Below, piece by piece: positions 16,728 to 28,384 of a stretch of DNA of 64,000 nt (position 1 is the stretch's first letter; each line of letters begins with the position of its first letter). The stretch covers positions 310,001 to 374,000 of the forward strand of contig CAJTCL010000002.1 of assembly GCA_910575005.1 (NCBI GenBank), in the 5' to 3' direction. Below the pieces are notes generated by a model. That model did no database searches, had not been told where the DNA came from, and saw nothing but the letters and a program-made list of their open reading frames with translations. A program made the position numbers and the translations under genes. Source of the stretch: Lachnospiraceae bacterium (GTDB taxonomy: Bacteria > Bacillota > Clostridia > Lachnospirales > Lachnospiraceae).

Positions 16728-18149
16728 ATGAAGGGTATGGCAAAATTGATTCGGCATTGTGTGGGAATTCTGTTCGTCAGCACAATCTTGATTTTGGTGC
16801 TTAATGTGTGTTTATTTGTGGCGATTTTCATGAAACAGACAGCTAATATTGAACCTTGGACAACCGCCCAAGAAACTGCGCTGGCACTGCGTCAGGAAAA
16901 TAATGGGTATGTGCTTTCGCGAGAAATGGAACTGGAGTTAGCGTCAGAACATGCATGGGCAATTTATATTGACAATGAAACATTAAAGGTAAAATGGCAT
17001 ACAAAAGAGCTGCCCCAAATGGTTCCCATGAGTTATACGGCTTCAGAAATTGCGCAATTGACCAGAGGATATATAGATGGTTATCCTACCTATACTGGAG
17101 TCACAGAAGACGGCTTGATGGTGTTAGGCTATCCCAAAGACCGCTTCTGGAAACATATGTCTCCCAGTTGGGATTATGATTTTATTAAAAATGTCCCAGC
17201 AATATTGTTAATTGTTCTGGGAGTCAATATCGCCGCAATCGGTTTGATTTATCTTGTTACCAATACAAAATTTCTTAAATCTGTGACACCACTTGCCAGA
17301 GCAATTGAGGAACTTCCTTCTGGTCAATTGGAAGAACTCAAAGAGCAAGGTCTACTGGTTGGTTTGGCAGTAAAAATAAACCAAACAGCACAGATTTTAC
17401 AGGTGCAGCAACAAAAGCTGCGAAAGAAGGAGATGGCACGTGCAAATTGGATTTCTGGTATATCTCACGATATACGCACACCGCTCTCTTTGGTGATGGG
17501 ATATGCAGGACAGTTAGAGGAGAATCTGCTACTGTCAGAGGAAGACAGAATGAAAGCAAATATGATTTGTCATCAGAGTATCATAATCAAAAATTTAATC
17601 AATGATCTTAATCTTGCATCTAAACTAGAATATCATATGCAGCCATTTGAGGAAAAAGAGATCAATCTCTGTACTGTGGTTCGGCAAAGTGCCGCAGATT
17701 TTGTAAATTCTGATTTTGCAGGTATATATAGAATAAAATTGGAAACTACAAAAGATGCAGAGGTTTGCAGAGTAAGGGGGGATCAAAGATTACTTGCGCG
17801 GGCAGTCCGCAATTTGCTCGATAATTCTCGTTCTCATAATCCGAAAGGGTGTTGTATTTGGATCACAATTCAAACTGAGAGGGAGGCATGTCTGCTTTCC
17901 GTGGAAGATGATGGTGTGGGAATATCCAAAGAAAACCTTCATAAGTTGCGTAATACTTTCCATTATATGATGGATGATACAGGGATTGAGGAGCCAAGAC
18001 ATGGGCTGGGGCTTCTGATTGTACAGCAGATTGCCACGGCGCACAATGGTGCAGTTTTCTTGGATCATGGGAAAAATGGCGGGTTTCAGGTGCTGATGAA
18101 AATTCCATTGTTGAACAAGGAAGCGGATGGCAGAACTACAGATTTGTAA
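16728..18149 (+). CDS. sensor histidine kinase
   Basis: A 473-residue membrane kinase with two transmembrane helices (about 8-36 and 152-178) enclosing an extracellular sensor loop of about 115 residues, so it is not one of the loop-less BceS-type kinases. The HAMP-like linker is followed by the phosphoacceptor H247 in SGISHDIRTPL, the N-box RNLLDNSRSHN, G1 box DDGVGIS, and G2 region HGLGLLIVQQIA. The N-box lacks the more usual Ala-Xaa-Lys spacing (Ser-Arg-Ser-His instead), which is tolerated in this subgroup. It is translationally coupled to the response regulator. The signal is probably an envelope-active antibiotic, judging from the neighbouring exporter. Confidence 0.93.
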   Translation: MKGMAKLIRHCVGILFVSTILILVLNVCLFVAIFMKQTANIEPWTTAQETALALRQENNGYVLSREMELELASEHAWAIYIDNETLKVKWHTKELPQMVPMSYTASEIAQLTRGYIDGYPTYTGVTEDGLMVLGYPKDRFWKHMSPSWDYDFIKNVPAILLIVLGVNIAAIGLIYLVTNTKFLKSVTPLARAIEELPSGQLEELKEQGLLVGLAVKINQTAQILQVQQQKLRKKEMARANWISGISHDIRTPLSLVMGYAGQLEENLLLSEEDRMKANMICHQSIIIKNLINDLNLASKLEYHMQPFEEKEINLCTVVRQSAADFVNSDFAGIYRIKLETTKDAEVCRVRGDQRLLARAVRNLLDNSRSHNPKGCCIWITIQTEREACLLSVEDDGVGISKENLHKLRNTFHYMMDDTGIEEPRHGLGLLIVQQIATAHNGAVFLDHGKNGGFQVLMKIPLLNKEADGRTTDL

Positions 18150-18153
18150 AGGG

Positions 18154-18244
18154 ACTGTGGCATTAAGGACAAAAATATAAAATATAGTTATTATCTGAGA
18201 ATAAAATTTCTACATTTTGTATTTGGATTCCTTAATGCCACAGT
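18154..18244. repeat. 16-bp perfect inverted repeat with 59-bp spacer
   Basis: ACTGTGGCATTAAGGA at 18154-18169 and its exact complement at 18229-18244, just after the histidine kinase gene. It may be a long-loop terminator or the ends of a small vanished element. Confidence 0.6.
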
Positions 18245-18324
18245 TCTTTGTTATTTTATATTCATATTTAAAAGATAGAGTTTAGTAAAAAATGGAAGGA
18301 ACTGGAAAAATATGGAAATTTTTG

Positions 18325-18353
18325 TTGAGATGAAAGGTTGGAAGTAGTATAAT
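18325..18353 (+). promoter_or_regulatory. sigma-A promoter for the ibrA-ibrB-like operon
   Basis: TTGAGA, exactly 17 bp, TATAAT. It gives a leader of about 120 nt. Confidence 0.7.
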
Positions 18354-18359
18354 AAAAAA

Positions 18360-18482
18360 CGGTACAAATTTACATCATATGGGGAGTAGCCTTCGCCTTT
18401 GGGCAGTGCGCAACAAATCAATTCTTTAGAATCAAGAATGACAGAATAAAAAGTACAGATGGCAAAGAAGGTGAGACACAAG
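18360..18482 (+). other. leader region of the ibrA-like gene, possibly structured
   Basis: The transcript would begin near 18360. The leader contains a locally GC-rich stretch at 18380-18411 (GGGGAGTAGC through GTGCGCAAC) in an otherwise AT-rich region, and a short stem TTCTTTAGAATCAAGAA. GGGGAGTAG and CAACA also occur in manganese (yybP-ykoY) riboswitches, but the second half of that motif is missing, so no assignment is made. The rest of 18150-18482 holds only the inverted repeat and the promoter. Confidence 0.35.
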
Positions 18483-19802
18483 ATGGTACGGCAATATCAA
18501 GAAGACAATGTATATGAAGCACTTCAAAAACGTTTTCATTTTTTATTTGAGGAATTTGAAAATATCTATGTTTCTTTTAGTGGAGGAAAAGACAGTGGCT
18601 TACTGTTGAATCTGCTGTTGGATTTTAAACGAGCAAATTATCCAGATCGTCAAATCGGTTTATTTCACCAGGATTTTGAAGCACAGTATACGGTGACAAC
18701 TGAGTATGTGGAGCGGACATTTCGGCGTCTAGAAAAGGAAGTGGAACCATACTGGGTGTGTCTTCCTATGGCGACGAGGACAGCGCTCAGCAGTTATGAG
18801 ATGTATTGGTATCCCTGGGATGACACCAAGAAGGATATATGGGTGAGGCCGATGCCCAAATATCCTTATGTGATTAATATGACAAATCCATTTCATCATT
18901 ATCGTTATCGAATGCCTCAGGAGGATTTGGCGAAACAGTTTGGCAGATTCTACAAGGAACAGCATAGAAAAGGGAAAACGGTGTGTTTACTGGGAATGCG
19001 GGCAGAGGAATCTTTGCAGCGTTACAGTGGATTTCTCAACAAAAAATATGGTTATCAAGGGGAATGTTGGATTTCCAAACAGTTTAAGGATGTTTGGTGC
19101 GCTTCGCCAATCTATGATTGGACAAATAATGATGTCTGGGCGGCAAATTATAAGTTTGGGTATGACTATAATGGTTTATATGACTTGTATTACAAGGCAG
19201 GGCTCAAGCCAAGTCAAATGCGTGTGGCTTCCCCTTTTAACGATTATGCTAAGGACAGTTTGAATCTTTATCGGATCATTGATCCAGAGATTTGGACGAA
19301 ACTGGTGGGACGCGTACAGGGAGCAAATTTTGGTGCAGTGTATGCCAGGACAAAGGCACTGGGCTATCGGAATATTACATTGCCGGAGGGTCATACTTGG
19401 GAATCCTATACAAAATTTTTGCTCGATACGCTTCCTGTGCGGCTTCGGAATAATTATGTAAAAAAGTTTCGCACTTCAATTAAATTCTGGCATGAGACGG
19501 GAGGCGGCCTGCCAGAGGAGACCATTGAGGAACTGATAGATCATGGATATCACATTCAGAGAAATGGTGTGTCAAATTATACAGTAAACAAAAATTCCAG
19601 AATAATTTTTGTTGGAAAGATACCAGATGACACAGACGATATCAAATCCACAAAAGATATTCCAAGCTGGAAGCGGATGTGTTACTGTATCTTGAAAAAT
19701 GACCATATCTGCCGTTTTATGGGATTTGGTTTATCTAGAAAAGAACAGGAACAGATTGATATCATACGGAGAAAGTACGGAGGATTTGTAAATGAGCGAT
19801 AA
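18483..19802 (+). CDS. IbrA-like phosphoadenosine phosphosulfate reductase-fold protein (DUF3440)
   Basis: A 439-residue protein with an N-terminal PP-loop ATPase domain: FENIYVSFSGGKDSGLLLN, with SGGKDS at 33-38, as in PAPS reductases and N-type ATP pyrophosphatases. Further family blocks are IGLFHQDFEAQY, VCLPMATRTALSSYE, LLGMRAEESLQRYSG, SPIYDWTNNDVWAA and a DUF3440-like C-terminus. Homologues include IbrA of E. coli, found with IbrB in mobile islands and required there for immunoglobulin-binding protein expression; the chemistry is unknown. ATG 18483 is preferred over 18459 because GAAGGTGAG lies at the right distance. It overlaps the ParB-like gene by 11 bp, indicating a functional pair. 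Confidence 0.82.
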   Translation: MVRQYQEDNVYEALQKRFHFLFEEFENIYVSFSGGKDSGLLLNLLLDFKRANYPDRQIGLFHQDFEAQYTVTTEYVERTFRRLEKEVEPYWVCLPMATRTALSSYEMYWYPWDDTKKDIWVRPMPKYPYVINMTNPFHHYRYRMPQEDLAKQFGRFYKEQHRKGKTVCLLGMRAEESLQRYSGFLNKKYGYQGECWISKQFKDVWCASPIYDWTNNDVWAANYKFGYDYNGLYDLYYKAGLKPSQMRVASPFNDYAKDSLNLYRIIDPEIWTKLVGRVQGANFGAVYARTKALGYRNITLPEGHTWESYTKFLLDTLPVRLRNNYVKKFRTSIKFWHETGGGLPEETIEELIDHGYHIQRNGVSNYTVNKNSRIIFVGKIPDDTDDIKSTKDIPSWKRMCYCILKNDHICRFMGFGLSRKEQEQIDIIRRKYGGFVNER

Positions 19803-20400
19803 GAGATATAAAAGTCCTGCTTATCAGGTAATATCAGTACCTGTGGAAAAAATTGTGCCTAATTCATATAATCCCAATGCTGTGGCGCCGCCGGAAATGC
19901 GTCTGTTATATGACAGCATCAAAGAAGATGGATATACCATGCCGATTGTCTGTTATTATTCTCAGGCACAGGATGTATATGTGATTGTGGATGGATTTCA
20001 CCGTTATCGCATTATGTTGGATCACAAAGATATCTATAAACGTGAAAATGGAATGCTTCCCGTGACCGTGATTGATAAGCCGCTGTCCAATCGAATGGCA
20101 AGTACGATAAGACATAATCGGGCGCGTGGTACACATGACGTAGATTTGATGAGTAATATTGTCAAAGAGCTTCATGAAATTGGAAGATCGGATGCCTGGA
20201 TTTCCAAACATATGGGTATGAGTCGGGATGAGATCTTGCGTCTTAAGCAGATTACGGGTCTGACAGCCTTATTTCGGGATATCAAGTTTGGACAGGCTTG
20301 GAAGCCAGTGGAGGAAGAAGAGGCAAGAGAGGCTCAGAAAAGCGCTGAAAAAAGGGAAATGCAGGAGAGTGAGAAGGAAGAAACTTTGGGAGAAATCTAG
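19792..20400 (+). CDS. IbrB-like ParB-domain protein
   Basis: A 202-residue protein with a ParB/Srx-like N-terminal domain: VEKIVPNSYNPN, LLYDSIKEDGYTMPIVCYY, and the box VIVDGFHRYRI, then ASTIRHNRARGTH. In modern ParB this domain binds and hydrolyses CTP; in others it is a nuclease or kinase. A helix-turn-helix (SDAWISKHMGMSRDEILRLKQ) follows at about 143-163, and the end is a Glu/Lys-rich tail. It is not the chromosome-segregation ParB, which is longer and paired with ParA. The 11-bp overlap with the PAPS-reductase-like gene marks the two as one unit, as for IbrA/IbrB. Confidence 0.82.
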   Translation: MSDKRYKSPAYQVISVPVEKIVPNSYNPNAVAPPEMRLLYDSIKEDGYTMPIVCYYSQAQDVYVIVDGFHRYRIMLDHKDIYKRENGMLPVTVIDKPLSNRMASTIRHNRARGTHDVDLMSNIVKELHEIGRSDAWISKHMGMSRDEILRLKQITGLTALFRDIKFGQAWKPVEEEEAREAQKSAEKREMQESEKEETLGEI

Positions 20401-20418
20401 CGTCATTTACATGGATAA

Positions 20419-20452
20419 AAATCCCCTGCGGCAAAGCTGCGGGGGATTTGAT
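20419..20452 (+). terminator. terminator after the ibrB-like gene
   Basis: AAATCCCC/GGGGATTT with an inner TGCGGC/GCTGCG-like stem and an AAA loop; weak T-run (TTTG). Confidence 0.7.
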
Positions 20453-20500: not shown

Positions 20501-21232
20501 TTATTTTATTTTTGAGCTTCTCTTTGTATTGCTCCATGTTCCATATAATTTCTGACTCTTATTTTTTGTGTAAGAACGTACTCTCACATAATACTGTTTT
20601 CCCTTTTTTAAGTTTGAGATTGTCTTTGATGTTGTTTTATTGTTACTGATGGTTATGCTCTTTACGCTCTTTTTAAATTTTTTGTCAGTACTGTATTGAA
20701 TCTGATATCCGTTTGCTTTACTGTCCTTTTTCCAGCTCACTTTCAGTTTCTTGCCTTTTTGTGTCTTTAATGATTTTATAGTCTGTTTGCCAGGGCGGGT
20801 TGCTTTTAAAGTGATATATGTAATTTCAGGGGTTGGACACTCATACCAGCTATAGTAAGTATAGAACTGCATATTTGCAACGACTGTATATTCTCCGGCT
20901 TTTTCCCCTTTGGTATCCCATGTAACCGCATAATTTATTGGTGTGTCATATACATGATAGAAATCTTTCTCAGCCCATGCAACAATCTTACCGGAACTAT
21001 CATAAACATCAATGCTCATTTTCTCATTGACATATTCTGGGAAAATCTCGTATTCGAGCTTTATGTTATCTCCTACTTTTGCCGTTATAAAAAGATCTTC
21101 TGCAAAAAAGAGCGGGTAATCTGCTGCCTGCACAGGTATGCTGTTCAATGATGTAATCAGTAATGCTCCAATTAAACATAAGATGATTTTGTTACGAAAT
21201 TTTGTTATCTTTTGTAATTTTAAAGTTTTCAT
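20501..21232 (-). CDS. secreted protein with C-terminal fibronectin type III domain
   Basis: A 243-residue exported protein. The signal peptide is at 1-36 (KITKFRNKIILCLIGALLI, then SIPVQAAD with an AxA cleavage site). The middle part (37-145) is beta-rich and resembles an Ig-like fold (VGDNIKLEYEIFPE, WDTKGEKAGEYTV). The last 95 residues are a Lys-rich Fn3 module (LKVSWKKDSKANGYQIQYSTDKKFKK, then GKQYYVRVRSY) often used as a wall-binding or spacer domain in Lachnospiraceae secreted proteins. No enzyme domain is seen. A related Fn3 module occurs in the gene at 23320-24531. Role unknown. Confidence 0.75.
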   Translation of the reverse strand: MKTLKLQKITKFRNKIILCLIGALLITSLNSIPVQAADYPLFFAEDLFITAKVGDNIKLEYEIFPEYVNEKMSIDVYDSSGKIVAWAEKDFYHVYDTPINYAVTWDTKGEKAGEYTVVANMQFYTYYSWYECPTPEITYITLKATRPGKQTIKSLKTQKGKKLKVSWKKDSKANGYQIQYSTDKKFKKSVKSITISNNKTTSKTISNLKKGKQYYVRVRSYTKNKSQKLYGTWSNTKRSSKIK

Positions 21233-26257: not shown

Positions 26258-26293
26258 ATAAACATCGAAAAACTTGTATTGGAGGAAGATATT

Positions 26294-28384
26294 ATGAACG
26301 TTTTTACAACTGATAAGATAAGAAACGTGGTCCTTTTGGGGCATGGCGGCAGCGGCAAGACGACTTTGGCAGAAGCTATGGCATATCTGTCTGGTATTAC
26401 CACACGTATGGGAAAGATTACAGATGGTAATACCATAAGCGATTATGACAAAGAAGAAACCAAGCGTCTTTTTTCAATTAATACTTCTGTAGTGCCAGTG
26501 ATCTGGGAAGATACAAAGATCAATCTGTTAGACACACCAGGTTATTTTGGATTTGTCGGGGAAGTAGAGGAAGCGGTCAGCGTTGCGGATGCAGCAATTA
26601 TTGTGGTATCTGGCAAGAATGGAATTGAAGTGGGGACTCAGAAGGCATGGGATATCTGTGAGAAATATAAGATACCACGTATGGTATTTGTAACAGAGAT
26701 GGATGATGACAATGCAAGTTTTCGTCAGGTAGTGGCGGATTTACAGGAAATGTATGGCAAGAGGATTGCGCCATTCCACCTGCCAATTCGCGAAAATGAA
26801 AAATTTGTCGGTTATGTCAATGTGGTGGCTCAGACAGGTAATCGCTGGAATGATAAGGGCGAGGTTGTGGAAATTCAGATTCCAGATTATTCCAAAGAAA
26901 ATCTGGAATTGTGCCGTGAGGCTTTGATGGAAGCAGTGGCTGAGACCAGTGAAGAATTTATGGACCGTTATTTTGCAGGAGAAGAATTTTCAGAATTTGA
27001 GATTCGTTCTGCATTGCGCACAAATGTGGTAGATGGCAGTATTGTTCCCATCTCTATGGGTTCTAGTACTTTGGTACAAGGCGTATACACATTGCTGGAT
27101 GATATTATCAAATATTTGCCAAGCCCAGAGAAACGTCCCTGCAAAGGGGTTAATATGAAGACAAATGAAGTCTTTGAGGGCGATTATGATATTGCAAAAC
27201 CTAAGAGTGCCTATATTTTTAAGACAATTGCAGATCCATTTATTGGAAAGTATTCTCTGATTAAGGTAAATTCTGGTGTCTTAAAGACAGATGACGTATT
27301 GTACAATGCGGATAAGGATCTGGAGACTAAGATCGGTAAGATTTATGTGATGCGGGGAAATAAATCGGTGGAAGTGCCTGAGCTTCATGCAGGGGATTTA
27401 GGCGCACTGGCGAAGCTCAATAAGTCGACTACAAGAGATACTTTGTCCACAAAAGCAACTCCTGTGGTCTATGGAAAGACCCAGATTTCCACTCCATATA
27501 CATATATGCGCTACAAAGCTAAGAAAAAGGGCGATGAGGATAAGATTTCGCAGGCGCTGCAGAAGCTGATGCAGGAGGATTTGACCTTAAAGACAGAAAA
27601 CGACAGTGCCAATGGACAGACCTTGATTTATGGAATTGGCGATCAACATTTGGAGGTTGTAGTCAGCAAGCTTGCCACTCGTTATAAGGTGGAGATTGAG
27701 CTGAGCCGTCCGAAAATTGCATTCCGTGAGACGATCCGCAAAAAATCAGATGTGGAATATAAGTATAAGAAACAATCCGGCGGACATGGACAGTATGGCC
27801 ATGTAAAGATGACATTTGAGCCAAGTGGTGACTTAGAGACGGCGTTTGAGTTTGAACAGCAGGTAGTGGGCGGCGCTGTGCCGAAGAATTATTTCCCAGC
27901 AGTGGAAAAGGGACTACAGGAATCGGTATTGAAAGGACCTATGGCAGCATATCCCGTTGTGGGTATTAAGGCAGTACTCTATGATGGTTCCTATCATCCA
28001 GTGGATTCCTCAGAGATGGCGTTTAAGATGGCTACGATTCAAGCCTTTAAGAAAGGAATTATGGAGGCTTCCCCTGTATTGTTAGAGCCGATTGCAACTA
28101 TGAAAGTGGTGGTACCTGACAAATATACAGGTGATGTTATGGGAGATTTGAACAAGCGGCGCGGTCGCGTGCTGGGTATGAATCCGGTGGAGACTGGTAA
28201 GACAGAGGTAACTGCCGATGTGCCTTATATGGAGATTTACGGATATATGACAGATCTGCGTTCTATGACAGGAGGAAGTGGATTATTCTCCTATGAATTT
28301 GCTCGCTATGAACAGACACCTTCTGATATTCAAGATAAGGAAGTTGCCTCCAGAATCAATAAGCTGGAGAAGGGCGACGAGTAA
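26294..28384 (+). CDS. EF-G-like translational GTPase (EF-G2 type)
   Basis: A 696-residue five-domain EF-G relative. G1 is GHGGSGKT (16-23), switch II is D80-T-P-G-Y84 where EF-G has a catalytic His after Gly, and the G4 position reads T134-E-M-D137 instead of NKxD. Domain IV (QSGGHGQYGHVKM, AVPKNYFPAVEKGLQES) and domain V (PVLLEPIATMKVVVP, RRGRVLGM) are intact. This resembles the EF-G2 paralogue (also with a Gly-Tyr switch II) whose role is not settled; the canonical EF-G gene would sit near rps12/rps7/tufA elsewhere. ATG 26294 has GGAGG eight bases upstream. The loss of Lys/Asn in G4 suggests altered nucleotide handling. Confidence 0.9.
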   Translation: MNVFTTDKIRNVVLLGHGGSGKTTLAEAMAYLSGITTRMGKITDGNTISDYDKEETKRLFSINTSVVPVIWEDTKINLLDTPGYFGFVGEVEEAVSVADAAIIVVSGKNGIEVGTQKAWDICEKYKIPRMVFVTEMDDDNASFRQVVADLQEMYGKRIAPFHLPIRENEKFVGYVNVVAQTGNRWNDKGEVVEIQIPDYSKENLELCREALMEAVAETSEEFMDRYFAGEEFSEFEIRSALRTNVVDGSIVPISMGSSTLVQGVYTLLDDIIKYLPSPEKRPCKGVNMKTNEVFEGDYDIAKPKSAYIFKTIADPFIGKYSLIKVNSGVLKTDDVLYNADKDLETKIGKIYVMRGNKSVEVPELHAGDLGALAKLNKSTTRDTLSTKATPVVYGKTQISTPYTYMRYKAKKKGDEDKISQALQKLMQEDLTLKTENDSANGQTLIYGIGDQHLEVVVSKLATRYKVEIELSRPKIAFRETIRKKSDVEYKYKKQSGGHGQYGHVKMTFEPSGDLETAFEFEQQVVGGAVPKNYFPAVEKGLQESVLKGPMAAYPVVGIKAVLYDGSYHPVDSSEMAFKMATIQAFKKGIMEASPVLLEPIATMKVVVPDKYTGDVMGDLNKRRGRVLGMNPVETGKTEVTADVPYMEIYGYMTDLRSMTGGSGLFSYEFARYEQTPSDIQDKEVASRINKLEKGDE

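Follow-up and report, generated by a model that had tools for sequence, protein, structure and literature searches.

What is the function of an operon that couples a PP-loop enzyme to a ParB-like protein, and how did it come to lie in a Lachnospiraceae chromosome? We analyzed a 64,000-nucleotide stretch of a Lachnospiraceae bacterium (GenBank assembly GCA_910575005.1, contig CAJTCL010000002.1, positions 310,001 to 374,000 of the forward strand; hereafter the window), which carries the two overlapping genes ibrA and ibrB. The reading that we favor, at a probability of roughly 0.4, is that ibrAB is a phage-derived gene-control pair that now persists in the chromosomes of its genus as a resident operon close to fixation. 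A preliminary description of this DNA had singled out the operon as a candidate undescribed system, yet ibrAB of Escherichia coli ECOR-9 was reported in 2002, reportedly by Sandt et al., and is said to activate prophage eib genes. A tested biochemical function for IbrA or IbrB was not found in the open-access literature, a body of text that leaves most subscription papers outside.

Residence in the genus and relatives in phages

The ibrAB operon is a resident, nearly fixed part of the chromosome in its genus. Of 29 genus genomes, 27 have DUF3440, a domain of IbrA (26 above cut-off; one match is a short fragment); the domain was detected in 43/250 genomes of the family (40 above cut-off) and in 4/398 genomes of the phylum, the present genome counted. 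The gene aroA follows ibrAB in 19 of the 24 fetched genus loci by order of open reading frames (ORFs) and in 20 by tblastn. The five exceptions by ORF order comprise two loci on short contigs or contig ends (L058, L072), two with different neighbors (L056, L070), and one in which IbrA was overlooked by the ORF caller (L071). Both genus genomes without DUF3440 keep aroA and tyrA together; the DUF3440 search across the genus had a positive control, and the empty protein search of these two genomes had none. A chemotaxis-receptor gene adjoins aroA in both pair-less genomes (its MCPsignal domain was checked in one of the two), and some carriers (L059, L066) have related genes in the interval from ibrB to aroA. 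The pair is under stronger purifying selection than aroA and tyrA, with median ratios of nonsynonymous to synonymous change (pN/pS) against the window of 0.11 for ibrA and 0.11 for ibrB versus 0.22 for aroA and 0.23 for tyrA; these values, from 18 to 24 comparisons per gene, are comparative only, pS being near saturation. The autonomous traveling cassette of the preliminary description does not agree with this picture, and a mobile cassette at the window site is ruled out for the genus by synteny and by the two pair-less genomes with aroA–tyrA intact. An EF-G-like GTPase gene (26279-28384) lies by aroA–tyrA and was found by tblastn in 18/24 genus loci, at a median identity of 92%.

Relatives on mobile DNA, which the same description had also proposed, do occur, on 215 of 50,697 phage records and 589 of 72,556 plasmid records, and related DNA was confirmed in at least 583 of the 600 viral stretches examined. 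The nearest phage IbrA proteins (L175, L176, L199) are 63–64% identical to that of the window. An IbrA tree was built by a quick method from 60 of 76 rows, with the far viral clade thinned by hand and branch support given solely by the Shimodaira–Hasegawa-like approximate likelihood-ratio test (SH-aLRT). In this 60-row tree, 17 chromosomal or plasmid rows of Lachnospiraceae type form one clade (SH-aLRT 100, starred) that is grouped with six phage rows in one set (99, starred). A FastTree run made before thinning likewise sets the chromosomal clade beside L175–L179 and L199. Because the chromosomal clade groups with phage proteins, we read ibrAB as domesticated from a phage; with E. coli-type IbrA as outgroup, the tree makes phage to chromosome the likely direction of transfer.

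The E. coli pairs IbrA/IbrB and YbdN/YbdM resemble the window pair in gene order, in their overlap, and in the combination of DUF3440 with an IbrB-like protein; identity to one E. coli plasmid copy is 33% for IbrA and 45% for IbrB. The settings differ: ybdNM lies by citR and the other copies are plasmid- or phage-borne or, by name, located in an island, whereas the window pair is near-core beside aroA–tyrA. A blastn match to ibrAB/ybdNM is present in 5372 of 5426 complete E. coli genomes, and in 4841 of them a single place accounts for 80% or more of the query. Each genome has 1 to 5 matching places, some of them short pieces, which suggests that E. coli carries a core ybdNM plus mobile ibrAB copies.

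Two conserved proteins and a candidate operator

The family assignment made in the preliminary description, IbrA with a PP-loop and DUF3440 next to IbrB, held up. In Pfam, IbrA scores 292.7 bits against DUF3440 (cut-off 25, E=1.3e-87) and 36.2 bits against PAPS_reduct (8.1e-9), and it matches PHROG 2302, labeled 'phosphoadenosine phosphosulfate reductase', at 3.4e-99. The PP-loop is intact, with SGGKDS kept in 66/66 aligned IbrA sequences, in which N414 and D415 are also invariant. An AlphaFold2 (AF2) model of IbrA (predicted local distance difference test, pLDDT, 86.1) has flavin adenine dinucleotide (FAD) synthase, CysD, and phosphoadenosine phosphosulfate (PAPS) reductase as its nearest folds. 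The motif ECG[LI]H, which we take to be the catalytic cysteine signature of PAPS reductase (CysH), is found in none of the 66 aligned sequences, and the CysH model gives 14 bits, under its cut-off of 165.1. The only conserved cysteines are C101 and C418, each in 65/66, and no cysteine set for a [4Fe-4S] cluster is conserved among these sequences. The NCBIfam DndC model scores 26.4 bits (2.9e-6) on IbrA, under a cut-off of 290.4. According to PMC11662687, DndC coordinates its cluster via cysteines. The likening of IbrA to DndC in the preliminary description is sound at the level of the superfamily, but extends neither to the family score nor to a conserved cysteine cluster.

IbrB carries the motifs DG.HR and HNRARG, both present in 36/36 aligned sequences. 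It matches the phage ParB-like PHROG 2159 at 9.8e-80, and phage IbrAB (PHROG 2302 and 2159) belongs to the same families as the window pair. A further match of IbrB is to the ParB portion of phrog_498 (1.8e-10), a family of phage DNA methyltransferases. Its predicted fold consists of a ParB/KorB N-domain plus a helix-turn-helix (HTH), with Noc and Srx folds also matched. This fold bears out the ParB box and HTH described earlier, although Pfam ParB_N gives only 23.1 bits, under its cut-off of 26.3; the ParB partition-protein model TIGR00180 gives 22.9 bits, under a cut-off of 58.45. In a gapless alignment made by eye, ParB IENIQREDL falls on IbrB RHNRARGSH with a His at the catalytic Glu position of the ENxQR motif, and the catalytic Glu of ParB appears to be replaced by an invariant His in IbrB. 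In comparison with the cytidine triphosphate (CTP) switches KorB, Noc, and ParB, IbrB reads HNRAR at the ENxQR-type motif and has one helix (res. 173–200) after the HTH in its predicted fold, where no dimer domain was recognized.

Just upstream of the ibrA promoter lies the tandem TGGAAAAATATGGAAA, the sole TGGWAA-N4-TGGWAA in the window, where 0.07 are expected. Of 106 unique chromosomal regions upstream of ibrA, 41 contain tandem or palindromic forms of the motif, versus 53 of 1199 ORF upstream regions in the same loci, the latter taken from every called ORF of at least 120 aa, ibrA included. The motif precedes ibrA in 19/22 loci fetched as genus versus 22/84 other loci. In PMC11497800 the AbrB pseudo-consensus is given as TGGNA-XXXXX-TGGNA, and PMC11135676 names a bipartite TGGNA motif. 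The genome holds two PF04014 (AbrB/SpoVT/MazE-type) matches, and judged by its letters the candidate operator fits an AbrB-type site. The pattern has 17 matches in its own genome, versus 5 for the reversed pattern. From the ORF list, an operator-like placement can be read for ibrAB and for a small cysteine-rich protein (L256), and one match overlaps the start of a gene taken by eye as RNase E/G (L264); operator-placed sites are too few for naming a regulon. The candidate operator of the window operon differs from that of E. coli IbrAB/YbdNM.

The ORFs of ibrA and ibrB overlap by 11 nt. The preliminary wording 'fused by overlap' captured this overlap, but the products are two separate proteins. 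Among relatives in genome contigs (80 loci, the best among 515 confirmed matches in genomes), an overlap is seen in 66 of 78 measurable ibrAB loci and is exactly 11 nt in 38. The second ATG of ibrA, at 18483, is likelier to be the start than the ATG at 18459 because it is preceded by AAGGTGAG and several IbrA relatives begin at the equivalent position. The promoter, already called strong, is the top-scoring of 11 sites in the scanned stretch, where shuffled DNA averages 7.5 sites. The terminator proposed after ibrB can be recognized as a hairpin (loop AAA, two G-T pairs in the stem), but the terminator scan flagged none after ibrB and the + strand lacks a T-run behind the hairpin, which may act for the convergent gene 20501-21232, as a shared terminator. 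This convergent gene encodes an fn3-domain protein, and similar proteins are encoded upstream of ibrA in one other genus genome (L051). On the other side, an inverted repeat (18146-18250, arms of ~20 nt, loop of ~60 nt) lies behind a histidine kinase gene; a second, partial copy elsewhere in the genome matches at 84% across about 41 nt, and the repeat would be a terminator or a remnant like a miniature inverted-repeat transposable element (MITE). Eleven of 12 weak Rfam matches in 18100-18560 follow this long inverted repeat. A GGGGAGTAGC run in the ibrA 5′ leader resembles the start of yybP-ykoY. A riboswitch in this leader was rejected, with no Rfam match at gathering score in the window and a leader that is unconserved among relatives.

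Table 1 Coordinates of the ibrAB locus in the window, with mini-proteins of viral loci listed last under their own loci.
Feature	Position	Strand	Description
Operator-like tandem TGGAAAAATATGGAAA (TGGNA-N5-TGGNA)	18303..18318	+	Candidate site just upstream of promoter
Sigma-70-type promoter TTGAGA-17-TATAAT	18325..18353	+	11/12 consensus matches
ibrA	18459..19802	+	ORF, 447 aa; enzyme of PP-loop nucleotidyl-transfer type, carrying DUF3440; start more likely at 18483
PP-loop SGGKDS	18579..18596	+	IbrA residues 41-46
DUF3440 region with C-terminal PSWKRMC-ILKNDH-C motif	19200..19751	+	Pfam, IbrA residues 248-431
ibrB	19792..20400	+	ORF, 202 aa; ParB/KorB-like nucleoside triphosphate (NTP)-switch and DNA-binding protein
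ParB/Srx nucleotide-binding core with DGFHR and HNRARG motifs	19822..20127	+	About IbrB residues 11-112
HTH region of IbrB	20128..20277	+	About residues 113-162
14-bp hairpin 3′ of ibrB	20419..20449		Read from sequence
Mini-protein with DUF3440 C-terminal motif	L189:5169-5423		Pfam 2.6e-9
Mini-protein with DUF3440 C-terminal motif	L187:7762-7998		
Mini-protein with DUF3440 C-terminal motif	L191:10279-10971		

IbrC and other viral partners

In viruses, ibrAB is often accompanied by a protein of ~140 aa encoded nearby on the same strand, which we give the working name IbrC. It was found in 41/79 viral loci by clustering of neighbors and in 45/80 by profile search; a loose clustering run that merged IbrA, IbrB, and antisense frames was replaced by a stricter one. 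The core pattern of IbrC is YHPY..WE....GM ... W..SCE..LT....NR.AW.G.AA. Searches of Pfam and PHROG at E 0.01 gave no match for 14 diverse members, and NCBIfam gave no credible match for three.

We then searched with the IbrC alignment itself and retrieved 80 loci (L294-L373), of which 74 lie on contigs outside the first set (L175-L254) by a check of names; these loci are the best 80 of 592 relatives of one query and are biased to its lineage. On the 74 new contigs, IbrB is present in 74 and IbrA in 73. The reading frames of IbrC and IbrB lie at most 300 nt apart in all 74, and no more than 400 nt separates the matched stretches. With IbrC denoted T, the gene order is B-T-A in 63, A-B-T in 9, and T-B-A in 1, and IbrC is on the strand of IbrB in 73/74. 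The 74 IbrC proteins comprise 46 distinct sequences at 90% identity. In 33 of the 74, IbrC shares a stop-to-stop frame with IbrB (18 distinct proteins at 90% identity), an apparent natural fusion. Viral loci recruited by IbrB, some on contigs already in the set, have IbrC in 35/70 and IbrA in 70/70. IbrC is thereby tied to IbrAB in viruses, an association that is new here. Its profile found 0/120 among chromosomal loci (one genome sometimes counted twice), and none in the 8 phages that lie closest to the chromosomal clade.

Phage IbrAB, in contrast to the chromosomal loci without IbrC, also often has a superfamily 2 (SF2) helicase nearby (28/79 viral loci) or an N-terminally extended IbrB; in 18/76 viral IbrB proteins the core is preceded by over 90 residues. 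One IbrB (L217:9338-10234) has an N-terminal ectoine-synthase/cupin domain (1.3e-32). A mini-protein of ~83 residues whose sequence duplicates the end of DUF3440 occurs in 15/79 viral loci, some frames labeled IbrA included, and L191:10279-10971 joins IbrC and such a mini-protein in one protein. This suggests that the DUF3440 C-terminal motif is a docking or binding module in its own right.

A possible role in gene control and its rivals

A regulator fits the pair best because a KorB-like DNA-binding protein is tied to a nucleotide enzyme and the operon has an apparent growth-phase operator; transcription control had been the third option of the preliminary description. IbrA would use ATP either for adenylylation of a target or in the synthesis or consumption of a nucleotide-linked compound, IbrB would bind nucleotide and DNA in the manner of KorB, and the two would jointly turn promoters on or off. 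Timing of the operon to transition or stationary phase would come from a regulator of the AbrB family. Such a promoter switch is in line with the eib activation reported for E. coli ibrAB.

Several points weigh against phage-derived gene control. The pair is spread in phages of many hosts, and its ties to IbrC and the SF2 helicase suit a DNA-working enzyme equally. The operator pattern was defined after inspecting ibrA upstream regions, which favors the pattern; most loci outside the genus lack it, and most of its 17 genome matches lie in or across coding frames rather than in operator-like places. The neighboring EF-G-like gene is more constrained than ibrAB (pN/pS 0.066). The tree was made by a quick method and its root lies on a single, very long branch; Listeria, E. 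coli core, and most Bacteroides chromosomal lineages are hardly sampled in it. PMC9068703 describes repression of E. coli ybdNM by CitR; in a citR mutant, ybdN is up by log2 5.5 and ybdM by 2.5, together with cysA, C, D, H, I, J, N, U, and W (log2 2.0–3.2) and flagellar genes. This mutant is widely changed (flagella, lrhA), and the cys response is not attributable to ybdNM, which leaves a possible, confounded link of ybdNM to sulfur nucleotides.

The main rival, a possible account that we consider on the unlikely side, is that IbrAB is a DNA-modification module in which IbrA activates a group with ATP and IbrB brings it to DNA, with IbrC and the SF2 helicase assisting in phages; phages would mask their own DNA, and the genus would keep an epigenetic mark. 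According to PMC11662687 and PMC12839542, a PP-loop enzyme works beside a ParB/Srx-fold protein in Dnd, and a ParB-like ATPase serves in Dpd. DndC, SspD, and BrxP (Dnd, Ssp, and type-4 BREX) share the PP-loop superfamily with IbrA and, in Dnd, the ParB/Srx-fold neighbor; the weak DndC match of IbrA, the likeness of IbrB to phrog_498, and the frequency of IbrC and the SF2 helicase in viral loci point the same way. Unlike Dnd, Ssp, and BREX, the two-gene ibrAB operon has no sulfur-donor or DNA-processing partner, and a scan of seven flanking window genes turned up no cysteine desulfurase, methyltransferase, or restriction gene. IbrA also falls far under the DndC cut-off and has no conserved Fe-S cysteine set, and IbrC is missing from all 120 chromosomal loci searched. 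A more speculative and rather doubtful scheme makes IbrA, IbrB, and IbrC a new phage system that marks DNA, or a target bound to it, with a group of adenylyl, sulfur, or amino-acid origin. IbrA would activate, IbrB (sometimes in frame with IbrC) would load, and IbrC would give the acceptor or specificity, and a two-protein derivative would have been domesticated in gut Lachnospiraceae as an epigenetic or transcriptional switch.

An anti-phage defense cassette, as the preliminary description had suggested, is improbable. Relatives are common on phages and plasmids and IbrA has superfamily kinship with DndC and BrxP, but the pair is near-fixed, syntenic in the genus, and under purifying selection, and PADLOC gave only weak DndC/BrxP or SIR2 matches for IbrA and IbrB (best DndC, 3.4e-7, 27.6 bits). 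The defense-island neighborhood that was proposed as a check is not seen either: there is no defense enrichment near chromosomal ibrAB outside the genus, in small samples, with 8 PADLOC models matched among 120 neighbors versus 26 among 120 controls. The neighbors came from a pool of 471 at 84 chromosomal loci outside the genus (L107-L174 by identity <81%), and 120 of a random 150 were scanned, with two long proteins dropped by hand; one genome may recur, as two collections were used. The controls were the first 120 of 203 shuffled proteins from 15 arbitrary stretches of pair-carrying genomes. Neighbor matches comprise mad3 (4), mad8 (2), AriA (2), GlgB, mad2, two WYL models, and a CARF-type model, and control matches include AbiEi, SspH, a reverse transcriptase (RT), and viperin models; 14 of the 25 control models shown are AbiEi with one match each, perhaps to one protein. 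A PAPS-reducing enzyme of sulfur (auxiliary) metabolism, as annotated, is slightly more improbable still: the fold of IbrA lies near PAPS reductase, the PHROG label agrees, and cys genes rise where ybdNM is derepressed in E. coli (PMC9068703), but the cysteine signature and CysH score speak against it, as does a regular DNA-binding partner, with IbrB in 118/120 chromosomal loci. We regard a toxin–antitoxin (TA) pair as very improbable. TASmania (PMC7020466) lists Listeria lmo1309/lmo1310 as a core-genome TA candidate, with the toxin assigned solely through guilt by association, but these are two large proteins with intact nucleotide-binding motifs, and the two genus genomes without the pair and with aroA–tyrA intact give no sign of addiction.

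The DUF3440/IbrB pair is a common uncharacterized pair of phages and mobile elements, annotated as a PAPS reductase plus a partition protein. These names are doubtful because the catalytic cysteine is missing and residues have changed. Near-fixation in the genus, together with a candidate operator, makes this organism a host for learning the role of the pair, and IbrC in viruses offers a handle on the phage version of the IbrAB system.

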